Shown here piece after piece: positions 11,394 through 17,624 of a DNA stretch of 46,537 nt. The position numbers and the translations under genes were made by a program. The stretch is from the NCBI GenBank assembly GCA_021824175.1, contig JAKALP010000039.1, positions 1 through 46,537 of the forward strand, read 5' to 3'. This stretch comes from Deltaproteobacteria bacterium. Lineage in GTDB: Bacteria > Desulfobacterota > Desulfobacteria > Desulfobacterales > Desulfosarcinaceae. Below the pieces are notes generated by a model that saw only the letters and a list, made by a program, of their open reading frames with translations, made no database searches and was not told where the DNA came from. How positions within the stretch are numbered: position 1 is the first letter of the stretch; each line of letters opens with the position of its first letter.

Positions 11394-12398
11394 CTAAAAT
11401 GAGACCAGGCCCAACACGGTCCTGGTTCCGGCAGTACCTTCCATACCCTGGGCGCTTTCCGTTGGTCTTTTAGGAAGCCATTTCGAAAGAAATTCTCGTG
11501 GCGGGCACCTTGGGATTACGAATAGAATTAACGCAGGACCCGCGGCCGCTGATGGTGCGAGATTCGAGGCCTCAGCCATTGGCGGGACTGGCGCTGGCGA
11601 GGCGGTTAATTGGAGCAAGGTCTGCCTTAATTCAGCCGAGGTTGAAGGCCCAGCCGCCGAATTGGGCACTGCGCTGGCGTTTGGGAGGCTGTATTGCCCG
11701 GCGGGGACCGCTTGGGGCCACTGCTCGAGCAGCTCATCCCACACAGCCCGGCTGGTGGTGACAAAGACGCTGGTTTCGTCCGCGCGATCCAGTGAAAGGC
11801 GGGCCCATGATTCCAGCCGCTGCTGGGTCATGTAATTTCCCAGGTCCTCATGACGGCCGGAGAGATGAGACGAGGACTCCAGCGCCAAATCCCCTTGATC
11901 TGGATCAGGTTCGCCTAAAATGCGCCCCAATTGTGCTTCCATGGATTGCACCCGGCCCAGATCGAGATCAACGGTCGCCTGCTGCTGATCATACGTATGA
12001 GCCAGACATAGAAAAAGGGCGGCCTCAAACCCGTGGTCAGTGCCGGCTGGCAAAACATTGTGTCCGGGCTTTTTTATTTGATCGCGGATCTGATGGGCAT
12101 CGGCCTCCCCTTGGCCGGCGGCCTGCAATTGGCTGCCACGAAATTGGCCGATGAGATCAGCGCCACGCCCCTGATGCAGTTCGGCCCAGGTGGAAAAATT
12201 TGCCAGCACCTGCCGGAGCTGCATCGGGTCGATTCCTGGCGGCGGGACCAACTCCAACACCCCTTTTTCAGCGGCCGCGCGCATATGGGTCGGGGTCAAA
12301 TCGGCCAAAGGCTCACACACCGCGACGGCCCCCAATGCGGAATAAAGCGGTTCTATCAATGCTTCGGGCAGATAGGTAAAAGGCAACAGGTGGATCAT
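11394..12398 (-). CDS. Protein of unknown function coupled to the cysK-cysS fusion
   Basis: 334 residues. The start overlaps the stop of the upstream cysK-cysS fusion by ATGA, so the two are translationally coupled. The protein is predicted soluble and alpha-helical, rich in Ala, Gln and Leu (LRQVLANFSTWAELHQG; ALFLCLAHTYDQQQATVDLD). It has a Pro/Ala/Ser-rich stretch near 240-290 and a C-terminal PRCPPREFLSKWLPKRP segment. No catalytic motif or known domain is recognised. Coupling suggests a role with the fusion protein or its product, but that is inference. Confidence 0.75.
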   Translation of the reverse strand: MIHLLPFTYLPEALIEPLYSALGAVAVCEPLADLTPTHMRAAAEKGVLELVPPPGIDPMQLRQVLANFSTWAELHQGRGADLIGQFRGSQLQAAGQGEADAHQIRDQIKKPGHNVLPAGTDHGFEAALFLCLAHTYDQQQATVDLDLGRVQSMEAQLGRILGEPDPDQGDLALESSSHLSGRHEDLGNYMTQQRLESWARLSLDRADETSVFVTTSRAVWDELLEQWPQAVPAGQYSLPNASAVPNSAAGPSTSAELRQTLLQLTASPAPVPPMAEASNLAPSAAAGPALILFVIPRCPPREFLSKWLPKRPTESAQGMEGTAGTRTVLGLVSF

Positions 12399-14680
12399 GG
12401 CCCCACCTTCCCATCCATGATATGAATTCCCATTTTCTCCAGCTCGTCGCGCAACTCATCCGCCAGTTTCCAGTTGCCCGCGGCCCGGGCTTGAGCCCGT
12501 TGGCGCAACAGTTTTTGCACAATGGGGTCCTCAAAGACCGGCTGGAATTGGAAAATCCCCAATACCGCGTCAATGCTTTTCAGTACGGTGACCACTTTGG
12601 ACACCTGTTCAGGGGCAATATTGCGGCGAGCCACCCGACGGTTGAGTTCTTTAACCACCTTAAAAATCACGGCCAGGGCCACGGAAATATTCAGATCATC
12701 CTCCATGGCCTCATTAAAACCGCTCTTGAGATCATAAAGGAGCTGATCCAGTTCCTTGTACGGTTTGCCGGCCTGCAACTGTTGCAATGCCGCCACGCAA
12801 CCGTCCAGGCGCTGCAGGGTGCGACGGGCATAGACCAGCCGTTCTTCCGAGAAGATCACTGGCTTTTGATAATGGCTGGAAAGCAGCCAGAAGCGGATCT
12901 CCCGGCCGCTCCAACCGCCGGTCAACAGGTCACGTACAGTCAGCCGACCGCCGCGCTCGTCAACCTTTTTGCCTTCCATCAGCACCCCATCGCAATGCAG
13001 CCAGACGCTGGCCAGGGGTTTTTTGTTGAGGGCCCCGGCAATGGCGATTTCATTTTCATGCAGCGGGAAAAGCAGTTCCCGGCCCGAAATGTGGATGTCG
13101 CAAGTTTCACCCAAATACTTCATGGCAAGGGTGGCGCATTGCAATGGCCAGGAGGGTTGTACCTTGCCCCAGGGAGTTTTTGTATAGAGCCCTTTTTTGA
13201 GCTCCGATAGTTTGACCCGCTTGAGCAGGGTGAAATCCCTGGGATTATCCTTTTCATAATCGTCCAGATCCACGGTGGCGCCGATCTTGATTTTATCCAG
13301 GTCGATGCCCGAGAGTTGGCCGTAGCTTTCAAAGCGCGAGATGTCAAAATACAGGGAGCGCAATTTTTCGTAAGCAAAGCCTTTGGCTACCAACTTCTGC
13401 ACGACTTCGACCATGTCGTCGGCATGGGCGCTGGCTCTGGGATAGTGCTCCGCCTTGCGGATCCCCAAATTGTCGCGATCTTGTTCAAATGCCGCAATAT
13501 TGCGGTCCGCGAAGGCCGTTGGCGCCATGCCGGCCGCATCGGCGCCGGCAAAGGTTTTTTCATCCAGGTCGGTGATGTTCATGACATGCTCGACCTTGAA
13601 CCCGCGGTAGCTCAAATAGCGGTCCACCAGGTCGGCAAAGACAAAACGCCGGGCATCGCCCACATGGATGGGCGCATGGGCCGTGGGGCCGGTGGTATAA
13701 ATGGTGACGCGGTCGGCCCGCTGGGGGGAGAAAATCTCCTTGTTGTGGACACGGGTATTAAAAAGCGCCAGGCCCACCTTTTGCCGCTCCACGAACAGCG
13801 AGGTGGAGAGATAGCGCTCGCCGCTGTCGGGCAGGATCACCACGATCAGCCCCTGCGGCATGCCAGCGGCCAGCCGCAGAGCCACGGCCATGGCGGCACC
13901 GCTGCTCATGCCCACGAAAATTCCCTCTTCCCTGGCCAGACGGCGGGCGGTTTCGAAGGCCTCCTCGTCATCGATGTTGACCTTTTGATCAACCCGCTCC
14001 TTTTCAAAAATTTCGGGGATGTAGGATTCTTTTAAATTCTTGAGCCCCTGGATTTTATGCCCCAAATAGGGTTCCACACCCACGATGCGCACCTGGGGCG
14101 CGATCTCCTTGAAACGGCGCGAGATGCCCATCAGTGTGCCGGTGGTGCCGATGGTAGCCACGATGGCGGTCACCTGGCCCTGGGTTTGCTCCCAGATCTC
14201 GTTGGCCGTGCCGTAATAGTGGGCCTGCCAGTTGGCCTCATTGTTGAATTGATCGGTGATGAAATACTCCCCTGGATATTCACGGGCCAGACGATAGGCC
14301 TCCTCGATGGCGCCGTCGGTGCCCAGGTGGCCGGGGGTCAACCGGATCTCCGCGCCCCTGGCGCGCAATATCTTCTGGCGTTCCAGGCTGGCGGTTTCGG
14401 ACATGGTGAGCAGCAATTTGTAGCCTTTGATGGCGCACACCATGGCCAAACCGATGCCGGTATTGCCGCTGGTGGCCTCCACCACGGTCTTGTCACGGGT
14501 CAGCGCGCCAGAACGCTCGGCCGCTTCGATCATGGAGAGCGCGGCCCGGTCCTTAATGGAGCCGCCGGGATTCAGGTACTCCAGCTTGGCCAGGATCGAA
14601 ACCTTGGGATTGGGATTCATCCGCCGGATTTCCACCAGCGGGGTGTGGCCAATTAAATCGAGGAGGGATGAATGTTTCAT
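12395..14680 (-). CDS. Cysteine synthase fused to a degenerate cysteinyl-tRNA synthetase-like domain
   Basis: 761 residues. Residues 1-300 are a PLP-dependent cysteine synthase (CysK/CysM type), with Lys43 in NPGGSIKDR, the TSGNTG loop at 70-75, GTTGT at 178-182, and SSGAA and LPDSGERYLS near 259-293. It would make cysteine from O-acetylserine and sulfide. Residues 305-761 follow the CysRS fold from the GPT segment (331) to a C-terminal helical region. The key residues are altered: the zinc Cys before GPT is Thr330, HIGN reads HVGD, WHIEC reads WPLQC, the zinc His in FPHHENE is Leu (FPLHENE, 538-544), and KMSKS is replaced by GKKVDER. The synthase half therefore looks active, while the CysRS half probably cannot charge tRNA normally. 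It lies between tmk and the coupled unknown gene. Confidence 0.9.
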   Translation of the reverse strand: MKHSSLLDLIGHTPLVEIRRMNPNPKVSILAKLEYLNPGGSIKDRAALSMIEAAERSGALTRDKTVVEATSGNTGIGLAMVCAIKGYKLLLTMSETASLERQKILRARGAEIRLTPGHLGTDGAIEEAYRLAREYPGEYFITDQFNNEANWQAHYYGTANEIWEQTQGQVTAIVATIGTTGTLMGISRRFKEIAPQVRIVGVEPYLGHKIQGLKNLKESYIPEIFEKERVDQKVNIDDEEAFETARRLAREEGIFVGMSSGAAMAVALRLAAGMPQGLIVVILPDSGERYLSTSLFVERQKVGLALFNTRVHNKEIFSPQRADRVTIYTTGPTAHAPIHVGDARRFVFADLVDRYLSYRGFKVEHVMNITDLDEKTFAGADAAGMAPTAFADRNIAAFEQDRDNLGIRKAEHYPRASAHADDMVEVVQKLVAKGFAYEKLRSLYFDISRFESYGQLSGIDLDKIKIGATVDLDDYEKDNPRDFTLLKRVKLSELKKGLYTKTPWGKVQPSWPLQCATLAMKYLGETCDIHISGRELLFPLHENEIAIAGALNKKPLASVWLHCDGVLMEGKKVDERGGRLTVRDLLTGGWSGREIRFWLLSSHYQKPVIFSEERLVYARRTLQRLDGCVAALQQLQAGKPYKELDQLLYDLKSGFNEAMEDDLNISVALAVIFKVVKELNRRVARRNIAPEQVSKVVTVLKSIDAVLGIFQFQPVFEDPIVQKLLRQRAQARAAGNWKLADELRDELEKMGIHIMDGKVGP

Positions 14681-14745: not shown

Positions 14746-15387
14746 CTATCGCTTTGCCGGCAGCAAAGCGCCCAGCGTTTTTTCTACGGTGCGGGTAATC
14801 TCCTGAATATCCCCCGACGCATCGATCACTCGGAACCGATGGGGTTCCAGGCGGGCCAGATCCAGATACCCATCTCGCACCTTTTGGTGAAAGGCCAGCT
14901 TCTCCTGTTCAAAGCGCGTCTCCTGGCGGCTGCGGCCGCCGGAGTTGATGGCCTGCCAGGCCCGGGACAAGCCCACCCTGGGTTCCAGGTCGAACAACAA
15001 AGTCACATCCGGCTTGAGATTGCCGCAAACTAGGCGATGCAATTCGGCGATGAGCGTTCGATCCAGGCCGCGAGCATAGCCTTGATACACAAGGGTGGCA
15101 TCAAAAAACCGGTCGCACAATACTACCCGGCCGGCAGCCAGATGCGGTTCGATGAAGGTGCGGATATGCTGCACCCGGTCCGCCACATAAAGCAACAGTT
15201 CAGTGCCGGCATCCATCTCCTTGTTCGCGGGGTTGAGAAGTACCGCCCGAATTTGAGCGCCGATGGCCGTCCCGCCCGGCTCCCGGGAAGTGACGCACTC
15301 ATAGCCCCGGCCCTCTAAAAATGCAACGATCTTTTGGAGTTGGGTGGTCTTGCCCGATCCTTCGATGCCTTCCAGGGTGATGAACAT
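14746..15387 (-). CDS. tmk: Thymidylate kinase
   Basis: 213 residues, normal for the family. It phosphorylates dTMP to dTDP. Visible motifs are the P-loop GIEGSGKTTQ (8-17), SREPGGT, CDRFFDATLVYQGYARG with the DR(Y/F) signature, and an Arg-containing lid (SRQETRFEQE). AAGGGG lies upstream of the ATG. It is embedded in the minus-strand run, 16 bases after the DUF1016 nuclease gene and about 65 bases before the cysK-cysS fusion. Confidence 0.95.
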   Translation of the reverse strand: MFITLEGIEGSGKTTQLQKIVAFLEGRGYECVTSREPGGTAIGAQIRAVLLNPANKEMDAGTELLLYVADRVQHIRTFIEPHLAAGRVVLCDRFFDATLVYQGYARGLDRTLIAELHRLVCGNLKPDVTLLFDLEPRVGLSRAWQAINSGGRSRQETRFEQEKLAFHQKVRDGYLDLARLEPHRFRVIDASGDIQEITRTVEKTLGALLPAKR

Positions 15388-15403: not shown

Positions 15404-16660
15404 TTAACACTTTGGTGAGTTCTTCAGGCCTGAAGCCTTTTTTGACCGTGCAGCTCTCTGAGAAGCCAAGGTCAATCTTTTTTGCTTTTCAAGCAGTGCC
15501 TGGGTTCGCTCAATTTCAGCGGCCAACTCCTTCTCATCGGGCAGCGCTGTCCGATACTCCGCCGCCATGACTTTGCTGGGGAGCCCCTCCAAAGCATAAC
15601 GGGCCACAGCCTCGTCTTTGCGAGCGCAAAGAATCAGCCCCACGGGCGGATTTTCGTTTTCATGGACCCAGTTTTCACGGGCATAATTAAGGTAAAGATG
15701 TATCTGTCCCGCGTCCGCATGGGTGAATTTGCCGATTTTCAAATCGATGATCACAAGGCAACGCAAACGGCGGTGGAAAAAGACCAAGTCCACTCGATAC
15801 CACTCGTCGCCAATGCGCAATCGTTTCTGCCGGCCAATGAAGCAAAAATCGTTACCCAACTCCAGCAAAAAGGCTTCCAAATGCCGGATCAGAGCGTTTT
15901 CCAAATCCGTTTCGGAATACTCGTCCTTGAGACCGAGAAACTCGAGTACAAACGGATCTTTGATCTCTTCTTCGGGCAGTAGTATGTCTTCCGGCAGAGC
16001 CTTTGCCCCTTTCCGCAGCATCGCCGCTTTGTCTCGGGATAGCGCCGTCCGCTCATAGAACTGGGAGTTTATCTGCCGGTCGAGCTGCCGCACTGACCAG
16101 CCGCCGCGCAATGCTTCTGTTTCGTAAAACTTACGCGCCAGTTCATTCTTTACCCCAAGCAAACGTACATAGGCGGACCAGGGGAGAGGAAAACAATTGG
16201 CGAGATCCTTAAGACACAAGCTTGAAGTCGAGATTTGTAATGCCAATTCAGATGAATGTACTTCGCTTTTAAAATTACGCGAAGATGTCGCGTAATTCCC
16301 TTTCTGATCTTCGTTGGATAATTTACGCGACGTTGTTGCGTATATTCGCGCTTCATTATACAAAAGATAAAAAGTGCGAAAGCGCTGGAGATTATCAACT
16401 CCGAATCCACGACCGAAACGTCTTTCAAGATCATCGGAAAGGCGCTTAAGCAACTCTTCTCCATAAGCAGCGCGCTTTTCGCCCTTTTGCTCACCCTCGA
16501 CAATTCTTCTGCCCACCAGCCAGTAAGCAGCAGTCATGATGCAGTTAACAGAACGCGCGGTCGCGCTTCGGGCAGCATCGAGCACCTTGGCAATATCACC
16601 CAGGACGGAAGGATAGAAAGGATCAGTACCGGCAGCCGTTTTTTTTGATTGCTTTGCCAT
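15404..16660 (-). CDS. DUF1016/YhcG-family PDDEXK nuclease
   Basis: 418 residues from the ATG at 16660. A longer in-frame start at 16843 lies inside the neighbouring gene and adds low-complexity residues; AAGGA lies 6 bases before 16660. The N-terminal half matches the DUF1016 helical region (MTAAYWLVGRRIVEGEQKG, FGVDNLQRFRTFYLLY, WSVRQLDRQINSQFYER). The C-terminal half is a PDDEXK-like nuclease (YRVDLVFFH then CLVIIDLKIG, giving Asp and Asp-x-Lys). This family is associated with restriction/defence loci and mobile DNA; its molecular role is poorly known. A central insertion has a degenerate repeat, IYATTSRKL and NYATSSRNF. The gene fits in an otherwise housekeeping run with 16-base gaps on both sides, and its middle is locally AT-richer. 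Confidence 0.88.
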   Translation of the reverse strand: MAKQSKKTAAGTDPFYPSVLGDIAKVLDAARSATARSVNCIMTAAYWLVGRRIVEGEQKGEKRAAYGEELLKRLSDDLERRFGRGFGVDNLQRFRTFYLLYNEARIYATTSRKLSNEDQKGNYATSSRNFKSEVHSSELALQISTSSLCLKDLANCFPLPWSAYVRLLGVKNELARKFYETEALRGGWSVRQLDRQINSQFYERTALSRDKAAMLRKGAKALPEDILLPEEEIKDPFVLEFLGLKDEYSETDLENALIRHLEAFLLELGNDFCFIGRQKRLRIGDEWYRVDLVFFHRRLRCLVIIDLKIGKFTHADAGQIHLYLNYARENWVHENENPPVGLILCARKDEAVARYALEGLPSKVMAAEYRTALPDEKELAAEIERTQALLEKQKRLTLASQRAARSKKASGLKNSPKC

Positions 16661-16676
16661 GGAAATCCTTCTGCCT

Positions 16677-17624
16677 TCACCCTTTAAAAAACTGCCGCTC
16701 CAGTAACCGGTGATACCCCGTCCAGGATGAATCGTTTTCTTCGGCGGCGATGAATTCGCGGATGGCGTTGACTCGGGAATCGATCTCGTCCACGTAGTTG
16801 AGCAAAACGGCTTCGATGGTCTTGGGCAGCTCGGGCGAGCCAAACTCCCGGGCGCCGTGATGACTGATGATCATGTGTTTAATCAGGGCGGCCGTGGCCG
16901 GTGGGAACCCTTCGATGGTCCTGATCTTGGCCTCCACCATCTCCACGCCGATGACGATATGGCTGAGCAGCCGTCCCTCGTCGGTGTAGTCGATGCGGTG
17001 ATCGTAGGCAAACTCGCGCACCTTGCCAATATCGTGGACCACCGTGCCCACCAGGAGTAAATCCCGGTTGATGCCGCCGTAATGGGGGGCAATGCGTTCG
17101 GCCAAGAGCGCCATGGACAAGGTGTGCTCCAACAACCCGCCGATGTAGGCGTGGTGCATGTTTTTGGCGGCCGGCGCCTTTTTAAAGCGGCGCACGAACT
17201 CATCATCATTCCAGAAGGCATCCATCAAGGCTTTGAGATGGGGCGTGCTCATGCTTTCGGTCAAGGTGCGCAAGCGGGCAAACATCTGTTCAATATCCCG
17301 CGTGGTGACCGGAAGAAAATCGCCCGGCGAAACACTCTCCGCGGGCACGCGGGCCATGGATTTGACCACCATCTGCAGGGCGCCCTTATACTCGCCGGCC
17401 GAACCATTGACGGCCACGAAATCGCCGGCCGCGGCCGACGAGGCCTGCTCCACGTTGTCCCAGAGCACGCCCTTGATCTGGCCGGTGCGGTCTTCCAAGG
17501 TGACGGTCATAAAGGGCTTGCCATCCTTTTTATAGGCAATGTTCTTCTCCGCCAGGGCGAACAGATCCCGGATCACATCACCGGCCTTGATGTCGGCCAC
17601 GAATTTCTTTTTTGCTTCGGTCAT
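16677..17624 (-). CDS. OB-fold/HD-domain 3'-5' exoribonuclease (YhaM-like)
   Basis: 315 residues from the ATG at 17624, with GGA 7 bases upstream; an ATG four codons earlier at 17636 lacks a ribosome site. An N-terminal OB-fold (about 10-100, KPFMTVTLEDRTGQIKGVLW) precedes an HD hydrolase domain with HHAYIGGLLEHTLS, VVHDIGKVREF and HMIISHHGAREFGSPE, the metal ligand set of the YhaM family. YhaM-type enzymes shorten RNA or single-stranded DNA from the 3' end in the cytoplasm. It sits between the REC/DHp gene and the DUF1016 nuclease. Confidence 0.9.
   Translation of the reverse strand: MTEAKKKFVADIKAGDVIRDLFALAEKNIAYKKDGKPFMTVTLEDRTGQIKGVLWDNVEQASSAAAGDFVAVNGSAGEYKGALQMVVKSMARVPAESVSPGDFLPVTTRDIEQMFARLRTLTESMSTPHLKALMDAFWNDDEFVRRFKKAPAAKNMHHAYIGGLLEHTLSMALLAERIAPHYGGINRDLLLVGTVVHDIGKVREFAYDHRIDYTDEGRLLSHIVIGVEMVEAKIRTIEGFPPATAALIKHMIISHHGAREFGSPELPKTIEAVLLNYVDEIDSRVNAIREFIAAEENDSSWTGYHRLLERQFFKG

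Follow-up and report, generated by a model that had tools for sequence, protein, structure and literature searches.

A cysteine synthase fused to a degenerate cysteinyl-tRNA synthetase: a possible link between cysteine synthesis and tRNA charging

We analysed a gene that joins a cysteine synthase to a full-length half resembling cysteinyl-tRNA synthetase (CysRS) in one open frame of 761 amino acids (aa). It lies on the minus strand, at positions 12395-14680, of a 46,537-nt stretch of DNA, called here the window, from a Deltaproteobacteria bacterium of the Desulfosarcinaceae (assembly GCA_021824175.1, contig JAKALP010000039.1). Proteins of this architecture form a single clade in which the HIGH and KMSKS motifs of the synthetase have decayed and the anticodon-binding residues have been retained; a separate CysRS gene (cysS) accompanies the fusion, and in many genomes the fusion is the sole cysteine synthase match and CysE has no match. 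The fusion may well be an O-acetylserine-independent synthase attached to a dead synthetase that still binds tRNA-Cys and ties the making of cysteine to tRNA charging, a reading to which we give about even weight. We infer the binding of tRNA-Cys, the use of O-phosphoserine as acceptor, and the regulatory coupling together with its direction from sequence.

The fused gene and its carriers

In the window protein, residues 6-297 make up a cysteine synthase of the CysK/CysM subfamily and residues 304-760 a complete CysRS-like protein. Pfam places PALP at 8-285, tRNA-synt_1e at 317-618, DALR_2 at 655-711 and CysS_C at 719-758, and the parts of the class I fold of CysRS (tRNA-synt_1e, DALR and anticodon domain) are all there according to Pfam and Foldseek. 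The NCBIfam model for cysteine synthases, TIGR01136 (cysKM), is exceeded with 376.6 bits (cut-off 344.15). A first-pass annotation, made from the letters of the stretch, had suggested an alignment to the CysRS and MshC families: the protein just reaches the cut-off of the cysS model TIGR00435 (340.3 bits against 340) and misses that of the MshC model TIGR03447 (154.8 bits against 485.1), whose alignment ends at residue 708, ahead of the anticodon domain. The AlphaFold2 model has mostly confident domains (mean predicted local distance difference test score, pLDDT, of 83; predicted template modelling score, pTM, of 0.59), with residues 206-222 and 291-301 below pLDDT 50. Its top matches in Foldseek are CysRS structures, best 8qhp and 1u0b, the latter a complex of CysRS with tRNA-Cys, and MshC comes 38th by E-value. 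On the plus strand, no frame that overlaps the fusion is longer than 262 aa; conservation of the two-domain frame across the whole phylum is far beyond chance. The gene and its parts are as follows.

12395..14680, minus strand: fused gene, cysteine synthase plus CysRS-like half, 761 aa (open reading frame, Pfam, NCBIfam, homologues)
13790..14665, minus strand: cysteine synthase domain, residues 6-297, with K43 and the invariant K214 (Pfam, NCBIfam, alignment)
12827..13771, minus strand: degenerate CysRS-like catalytic domain, residues 304-618 (Pfam, alignment)
13655..13666, minus strand: equivalent of HIGH, reading HVGD, residues 339-342 (alignment)
12953..12967, minus strand: equivalent of KMSKS, reading KVDER, residues 572-576 (alignment)
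12548..12718, minus strand: DALR_2 domain, residues 655-711 (Pfam)
12407..12526, minus strand: anticodon-binding domain, residues 719-758 (Pfam, alignment)

We searched 60 genomes, the window's own and its relatives of genus, family and order, and read fused frames in 49 of them. Among the remaining 11 (G, C and L numbers are our labels for genomes, contigs and loci), the frames are interrupted or partial in G007, G021, G024, G025, G033 and G047, and no fusion was listed for G014, G027, G042, G048 and G049. Of 395 genomes across the phylum, 154 have a match to the C-terminal half at E ≤ 1e-120; among the matches listed phylum-wide, frames are at least 704 aa long in all except G130, G393 and the second match of G244. 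In a scan of named genomes, 11 of the best 80 loci were fused, nine of them under Desulfo- names and two labelled Deltaproteobacteria; these names point to Desulfobacterota as the phylum of the carriers, and fusions in other phyla may exist. The protein from Desulforapulum autotrophicum (L093) is identical over the last 400 residues to L062, a relative in the window's order.

Two candidates were set aside. An Acetoanaerobium match with 99% coverage consists of two pieces over 2.9 kb without annotation and was not counted as a fusion. In a 1403-aa frame (G187, locus L189), which seemed to offer an extra N-terminal domain, the added 600 residues were judged by eye to be a GC-rich, low-complexity chance frame.

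We aligned 99 fused proteins (98 distinct, given the match of L093 to L062) with 47 standalone CysRS, the latter including eleven of the 69 unfused loci L102-L170. L094 stands in the fused set without its N-terminus; the dropped rows are L088, which is truncated, L085 and L086, which duplicate L001 and L002, L003, which is the window protein itself, and L210, which overlaps L189. In a quick tree of these 99 and 47 rows, with the motif columns omitted, the fusions separate from the standalone CysRS as one clade, with a support of 100 in the Shimodaira-Hasegawa-like approximate likelihood ratio test (SH-aLRT).

Charging motifs and the anticodon domain

Motif positions were read by aligning the window protein to E. 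coli CysRS, in which we take C28, C209, H234 and E238 to be the zinc ligands and the HIGH and KMSKS positions given below to be the motif residues. Two of the four zinc ligands are lost (C28 is T330 and H234 is L540), while C209 and E238 are kept as C515 and E544. The HIGH site reads HVGD, with D342 for H40; WHIEC has become WPLQC, with P512 for H206 and Q514 for E208; the KMSKS site is KVDER, in which K266 is kept (K572) and K269 replaced by E575. The first-pass annotation had read these motifs correctly (Thr330 and a Leu at the zinc site, WPLQC, HVGD, GKKVDER), and its picture of a fused, apparently disarmed synthetase is borne out; left unsaid there were the minus strand, the two zinc ligands still in place and the retained first lysine of KMSKS.

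Across the family, an intact HIGH, scored as H, G and H/N, is kept by 4 of 99 fusions against 46 of 47 standalone CysRS, KM[SA]K by 0 of 99 against 46 of 47, and the zinc site by 57 of 99 against 46 of 47. A relaxed KM[SA][KR], with M, F or L allowed for M, occurs in 15 of the 99. No fusion has all three motifs together, and L171 alone does so if KMSR is accepted. By parsimony (fewest changes on a quick tree of the fusions), the HIGH columns changed 31, 27, 25 and 32 times and the KMSKS columns 22, 38, 27, 45 and 43 times, the median of the CysRS-like half being 24; in 45 standalone CysRS (L001 and L082 omitted) the same columns changed 0-3 times. As the HIGH and KMSKS columns vary like an average column, the charging chemistry appears to have been freed from constraint, many times over.

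The zinc-ligand columns changed 3-16 times in the fusions. Loss of HIGH and KMSKS is the family-wide feature, and the zinc loss in the window protein one lineage's version of it; with the site intact in 57 fusions, loss of zinc ligands is not a hallmark of the family, and on this point the first reading is not supported as it stood. The pocket has been lost in several lineages, including the window's, and cysteine sensing, another role suggested earlier, is unlikely to be general if it works through this pocket.

The window's genome (G000; 6.07 Mb, 99.5% complete) also carries an intact separate cysS on contig C43, with 451.7 bits to TIGR00435 and with the zinc ligands, HIGN and KMAKS present; a third CysRS-like gene is on contig C22. 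The first-pass annotation had proposed to look for a second, intact cysS, the lack of which, together with charging of tRNA-Cys, would have refuted it; the copy on C43 is such a gene. In the set from the window's order, 47 of the 49 fused genomes showed a separate match to cysS, which is split or partial in G016 and in G018; the other two, G008 and G059, are 64% and 65% complete. In the phylum set, 35 of 38 had one, though in G164 and G193 it is partial; G130, the 39th genome of this set, lacks the fusion. Of the other three, G064 and G273 (79% and 82% complete) have none, and G082 has a 100-residue fragment only. Combined, this makes 82 of the 87 fused genomes counted, a few of them with a match left partial by a contig end.

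The separate cysS of the window's genus (L086 in the window's genome) scores about 430-455 bits with TIGR00435, versus about 570-605 in many relatives of the order, and this type resembles a PRK14536-like subtype (523 bits, below the cut-off of that model). It may be that cysS was replaced in the window's lineage.

Could the fusion still be a working CysRS, slow or conditional, with losses that are only apparent? L171, which keeps the zinc site, HLGN and KMSR, would suggest so, as would the 15 fusions with a relaxed KMSKS motif and the TIGR00435 score of the window protein. However, a strict KM[SA]K in no fusion, HIGH in four, motif columns that change at the average rate of the half, and a separate cysS match in 82 of 87 genomes make a charging enzyme very doubtful.

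R728, R732, D741, R744 and D756 of the window protein correspond to R423, R427, D436, R439 and D451 of E. coli CysRS. These five charged residues of the anticodon domain are kept in all 99 fusions (R732 is K in two) and in 45 of 47 standalone CysRS, the two misses, L001 and L082, having no anticodon domain. On the fusion tree R427 changed twice, and R423, D436, R439 and D451 did not change at all, in a domain that is among the more variable ones, with a mean entropy of 1.93 bits (1.5-1.6 in the catalytic domain, 2.0 in DALR). In the E. coli complex, G34 of tRNA-Cys makes hydrogen bonds with R427 and D436 and takes part in a water network with D436 and R423, and W432 stacks on G34 (PMC12684709). 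The window protein has the equivalents of R423, R427 and D436, the residues of G34 recognition. Lost catalysis together with a kept grip on the anticodon would be the pattern expected of a module that binds tRNA and does not charge it. Of the roles listed by the first-pass annotation, tRNA binding with regulation of the synthase would fit motif decay and anticodon retention best, judging by sequence alone.

The CysRS half might instead be a relict with no role in tRNA binding, kept for folding or oligomerization, its charged anticodon residues being structural. The steady decay of the catalytic motifs would agree with such a fate; yet in the aligned fused frames the matches reach across the anticodon domain, and within this variable mini-domain the charged, RNA-contacting columns never or hardly change. 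Elsewhere the domain is missing: CysRS*, a paralogue discussed below, does without it, and the match of the MshC model ends before it. We find a merely structural half improbable.

The synthase half and its metabolic setting

K43, which we take to be the lysine that holds pyridoxal phosphate, is present in 98 of the 99 fused rows, the other row being gapped and without that part. SGNTGIG, presumably the substrate loop, is conserved in the fused synthase half, and K214 is found in 99 of 99. This half resembles CysM-type cysteine synthase B, or O-phosphoserine sulfhydrylase, in its conserved active-site residues; we know of no CysM-type enzyme with a synthetase half. For comparison, six free-standing CysK from the phylum, of which four come from genomes with the fusion, share 45-49% identity with the half in the window protein, and the fusions have GLKN[ML]KE where those six have GIGAG. 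In archaeal enzymes a basic residue takes part in phosphoserine recognition (PMC5120207). We infer that the fused synthase is independent of O-acetylserine; its acceptor is most likely O-phosphoserine, an intermediate of serine synthesis.

The metabolic setting was examined in 40 fused genomes, nearly all one per family and chosen as fusion carriers; incomplete genomes may hide genes, and the set was restricted to those at least 90% complete. Cysteine synthases were counted at E ≤ 1e-50 with TIGR01136 and CysE at E ≤ 1e-15 with TIGR01172. The fusion is the sole cysteine synthase match in 24 of the 40 genomes, and in 23 of these 24 CysE is not matched. In the remaining one, G111, the CysE match is weak (2.6e-33), and among 25 genomes G111 alone lacks a SerA match. 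Where a second synthase is present, CysE is matched in 16 of 16 genomes (Fisher p 2.7e-10 for the association, n = 40, not corrected for kinship). All 23 genomes with the fusion as sole synthase and without CysE have a SerA match. Both CysE and free-standing synthases were found in each of four genomes searched that lack the fusion (G049, G080, G084 and G130).

A probable tRNA-Cys-binding half joined to a sulfhydrylase, in carriers of which 23 of 40 have no CysE match, also brings to mind tRNA-dependent cysteine synthesis, in which the synthase, like SepCysS, would take a tRNA-Cys-bound amino acid as its substrate. Still, the synthase half looks like an ordinary enzyme of free amino acids, SepCysS was found in 0 of 25 genomes searched (the control was positive in two methanogens), and with CysRS present Cys-tRNA can be formed directly. 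Such a route is hardly to be expected here.

Proposed mechanism and genomic context

We propose that a duplicated CysRS was joined to a cysteine synthase once, early in the phylum. The synthase half would be an active enzyme with no need for O-acetylserine, most likely using O-phosphoserine and sulfide. The CysRS half would no longer charge tRNA, its ATP and adenylate motifs having drifted freely, and would still bind tRNA-Cys through the anticodon domain. The bound tRNA-Cys, most likely the uncharged form that accumulates at cysteine shortage, would adjust the activity of the attached synthase, and cysteine output would follow demand where the CysE control point is missing.

CysE is the usual point of cysteine feedback, and sulfide is plentiful in sulfate reducers. 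With CysE control missing, sulfide plentiful and O-phosphoserine at hand, a dead synthetase that reads tRNA would restore control; a precedent for such sensing is GCN2, in which a synthetase-like domain reads uncharged tRNA. The specific proposal of a tRNA-gated metabolic enzyme, in which the dead CysRS, fused to a synthase of O-phosphoserine type, reads the charging state of tRNA-Cys and replaces the CysE control point in a phylum with many sulfide producers, is put forward tentatively, as a possibility somewhat short of even.

Several observations weigh against this interpretation. One fusion, L171, is near intact in its zinc site, HLGN and KMSR. R439 and D451 figure as anticodon contacts by our own assumption; W432 is W in 83 of 99 fusions, with F or Y in the remaining 16, and is variable in standalone CysRS too; and 21 other columns of the CysRS half also never change, so that invariance alone is no proof of RNA contact, and some of the invariance of the anticodon residues could be structural. 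As to the synthase, the CysM structure 2v03, titled O-acetylserine sulfhydrylase, is also basic at the position of K214, and O-phosphoserine is rejected by C. jejuni CysM (PMC9855970). The loop with K214 is below pLDDT 50 and the AlphaFold model has a pTM of 0.59, so that both this loop and the packing of the halves are modelled with low confidence. Only 1 of 17 CysE-positive genomes reaches the curated cut-off for CysE, and a serine acetyltransferase of divergent or unrelated type may have escaped the search. In the window's own genome, CysE and CysK lie next to each other on contig C34, and the fusion is not the sole synthase there.

The data that imply tRNA binding would also allow binding without allostery: the dead synthetase would tether the synthase to tRNA-Cys, and hence to CysRS or ribosomes, cysteine would be made where it is used, and the free cysteine could then be charged by the separate cysS product. 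Two proteins competing for one anticodon should hinder charging, though, and we regard simple tethering as unlikely, if worth keeping in mind.

Seen as a putative tRNA-reading regulator, the fusion can be set beside known proteins. With CysRS (TIGR00435) it shares the fold, the domain order including the anticodon domain, and the anticodon residues; unlike CysRS, it carries a cysteine synthase and has lost HIGH and KMSKS nearly family-wide and the zinc site in some lineages. Many fusions exceed the cut-off of TIGR00435, a model for cysteine--tRNA ligase, yet an intact KMSK is found in 0 of the 99 aligned, and such proteins may be annotated automatically as charging enzymes.

In its logic, the closest parallel would be HisZ, a class II protein and a separate subunit. 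HisZ is a paralogue of the synthetase HisRS without adenylation activity, is tied to the enzyme that makes the same amino acid, and mediates feedback on HisG, namely inhibition by histidine (PMC9437257). In the fusion, too, the CysRS half is linked to a cysteine-making enzyme, and its motifs suggest that adenylation has been lost; unlike HisZ, it is class I, covalently joined, and keeps the tRNA-gripping residues.

MshC, the cysteine ligase of mycothiol synthesis, has no anticodon domain and keeps its ATP motifs intact, whereas the window protein has the anticodon domain and altered HIGH and KMSKS; MshC is catalytic, and its model's match to the fusion stops at residue 708. A ligase of this type, activating cysteine and joining it to a small molecule, had been among the roles suggested by the first-pass annotation. 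Common descent, visible in the TIGR03447 match, speaks for it, MshC being a known CysRS paralogue with a role outside charging (PMC2922099). However, such a ligase needs ATP activation of cysteine, and HIGH, KMSKS and here also the zinc site have changed. The fold is nearer to CysRS, as the Foldseek ranks indicate, and the anticodon domain is kept. Also, among 45 loci that lie mostly outside the window's order, no family of neighbouring genes is seen more than 6 times (39 outside it; the other six, L096-L101, include at least two named Desulfobacterales or Desulfobacteraceae; contig ends shorten loci). An MshC-like ligase is a slim prospect.

CysRS* of Desulfobacterales, a CysRS paralogue in the same bacterial group, has the opposite pattern: it has no anticodon domain, and the one on contig C22 of the window's genome keeps HIGH-type and KMSKS motifs. 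There (L085, 3697-6985), a tRNA-Sec-like gene with a UCA anticodon is in a row with a gene judged by eye to be SelB-like and one for CysRS without anticodon domain, downstream of a frame resembling formate dehydrogenase. The row resembles the SelC*/SelB*/CysRS* system of Desulfobacterales (PMC7609411), and CysRS* is the likely identity of the last gene. Another CysRS paralogue, from a genome of the same genus (G001; L082, 3561-4805, minus strand, 415 aa), has neither an anticodon domain nor KMSKS, reaches 299.5 bits against the MshC model, whose cut-off is 485.1, and is possibly another cysteine ligase. A scan of the window's own genome for tRNA-Cys with a 13-base pattern gave 17 matches, each with one mismatch.

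A review of synthetase paralogues gives, in its available part, only CysRS* and MshC for CysRS (PMC9437257), and no description of a cysteine synthase-CysRS fusion was found in the literature searched, in which coverage of subscription journals is limited. As a regulator derived from a synthetase, the fusion would be of class I, covalently joined to its enzyme and probably able to bind the anticodon. If true, the proposed coupling would explain how many Desulfobacterota make and meter cysteine without CysE; among synthetase paralogues with a regulatory role in amino-acid synthesis, it would be a new case that is covalently fused and binds tRNA, and it would place a GCN2-like sensor logic on the biosynthetic enzyme itself, not on translation or transcription.

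Two genes adjoin the fusion in the window.

14746..15387, minus strand: thymidylate kinase gene (tmk), directly upstream of the fusion (Pfam)
11394..12398, minus strand: 334-aa frame of no known family, its ATG overlapping the TGA of the fusion (no Pfam or NCBIfam match)

Of the 54 loci from the order, 42 have a tmk homologue as a neighbour of the fusion, as has 1 of the 45 others, and a homologue of the 334-aa frame follows downstream on the same strand in 40 of the 54 and in 0 of the 45. Conserved neighbours were considered as a clue to function and rejected: no cluster of neighbours occurs in more than 6 of the 45, and no pathway partner was seen. The start of the 334-aa frame overlaps the fusion's stop (ATGA), and this frame encodes a conserved protein that is possibly coupled translationally to the fusion.

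Between an HD/OB-fold gene and tmk lies a gene for a DUF1016/YhcG PDDEXK nuclease (15404-16843, minus strand), which adjoins the fusion in 1 of 99 loci, that of the window. The distance from the HD/OB gene to the fusion is 1964 bases in the window against a median of 723 in relatives; with the widened spacing and its presence in the window only, the nuclease gene looks like an insertion.

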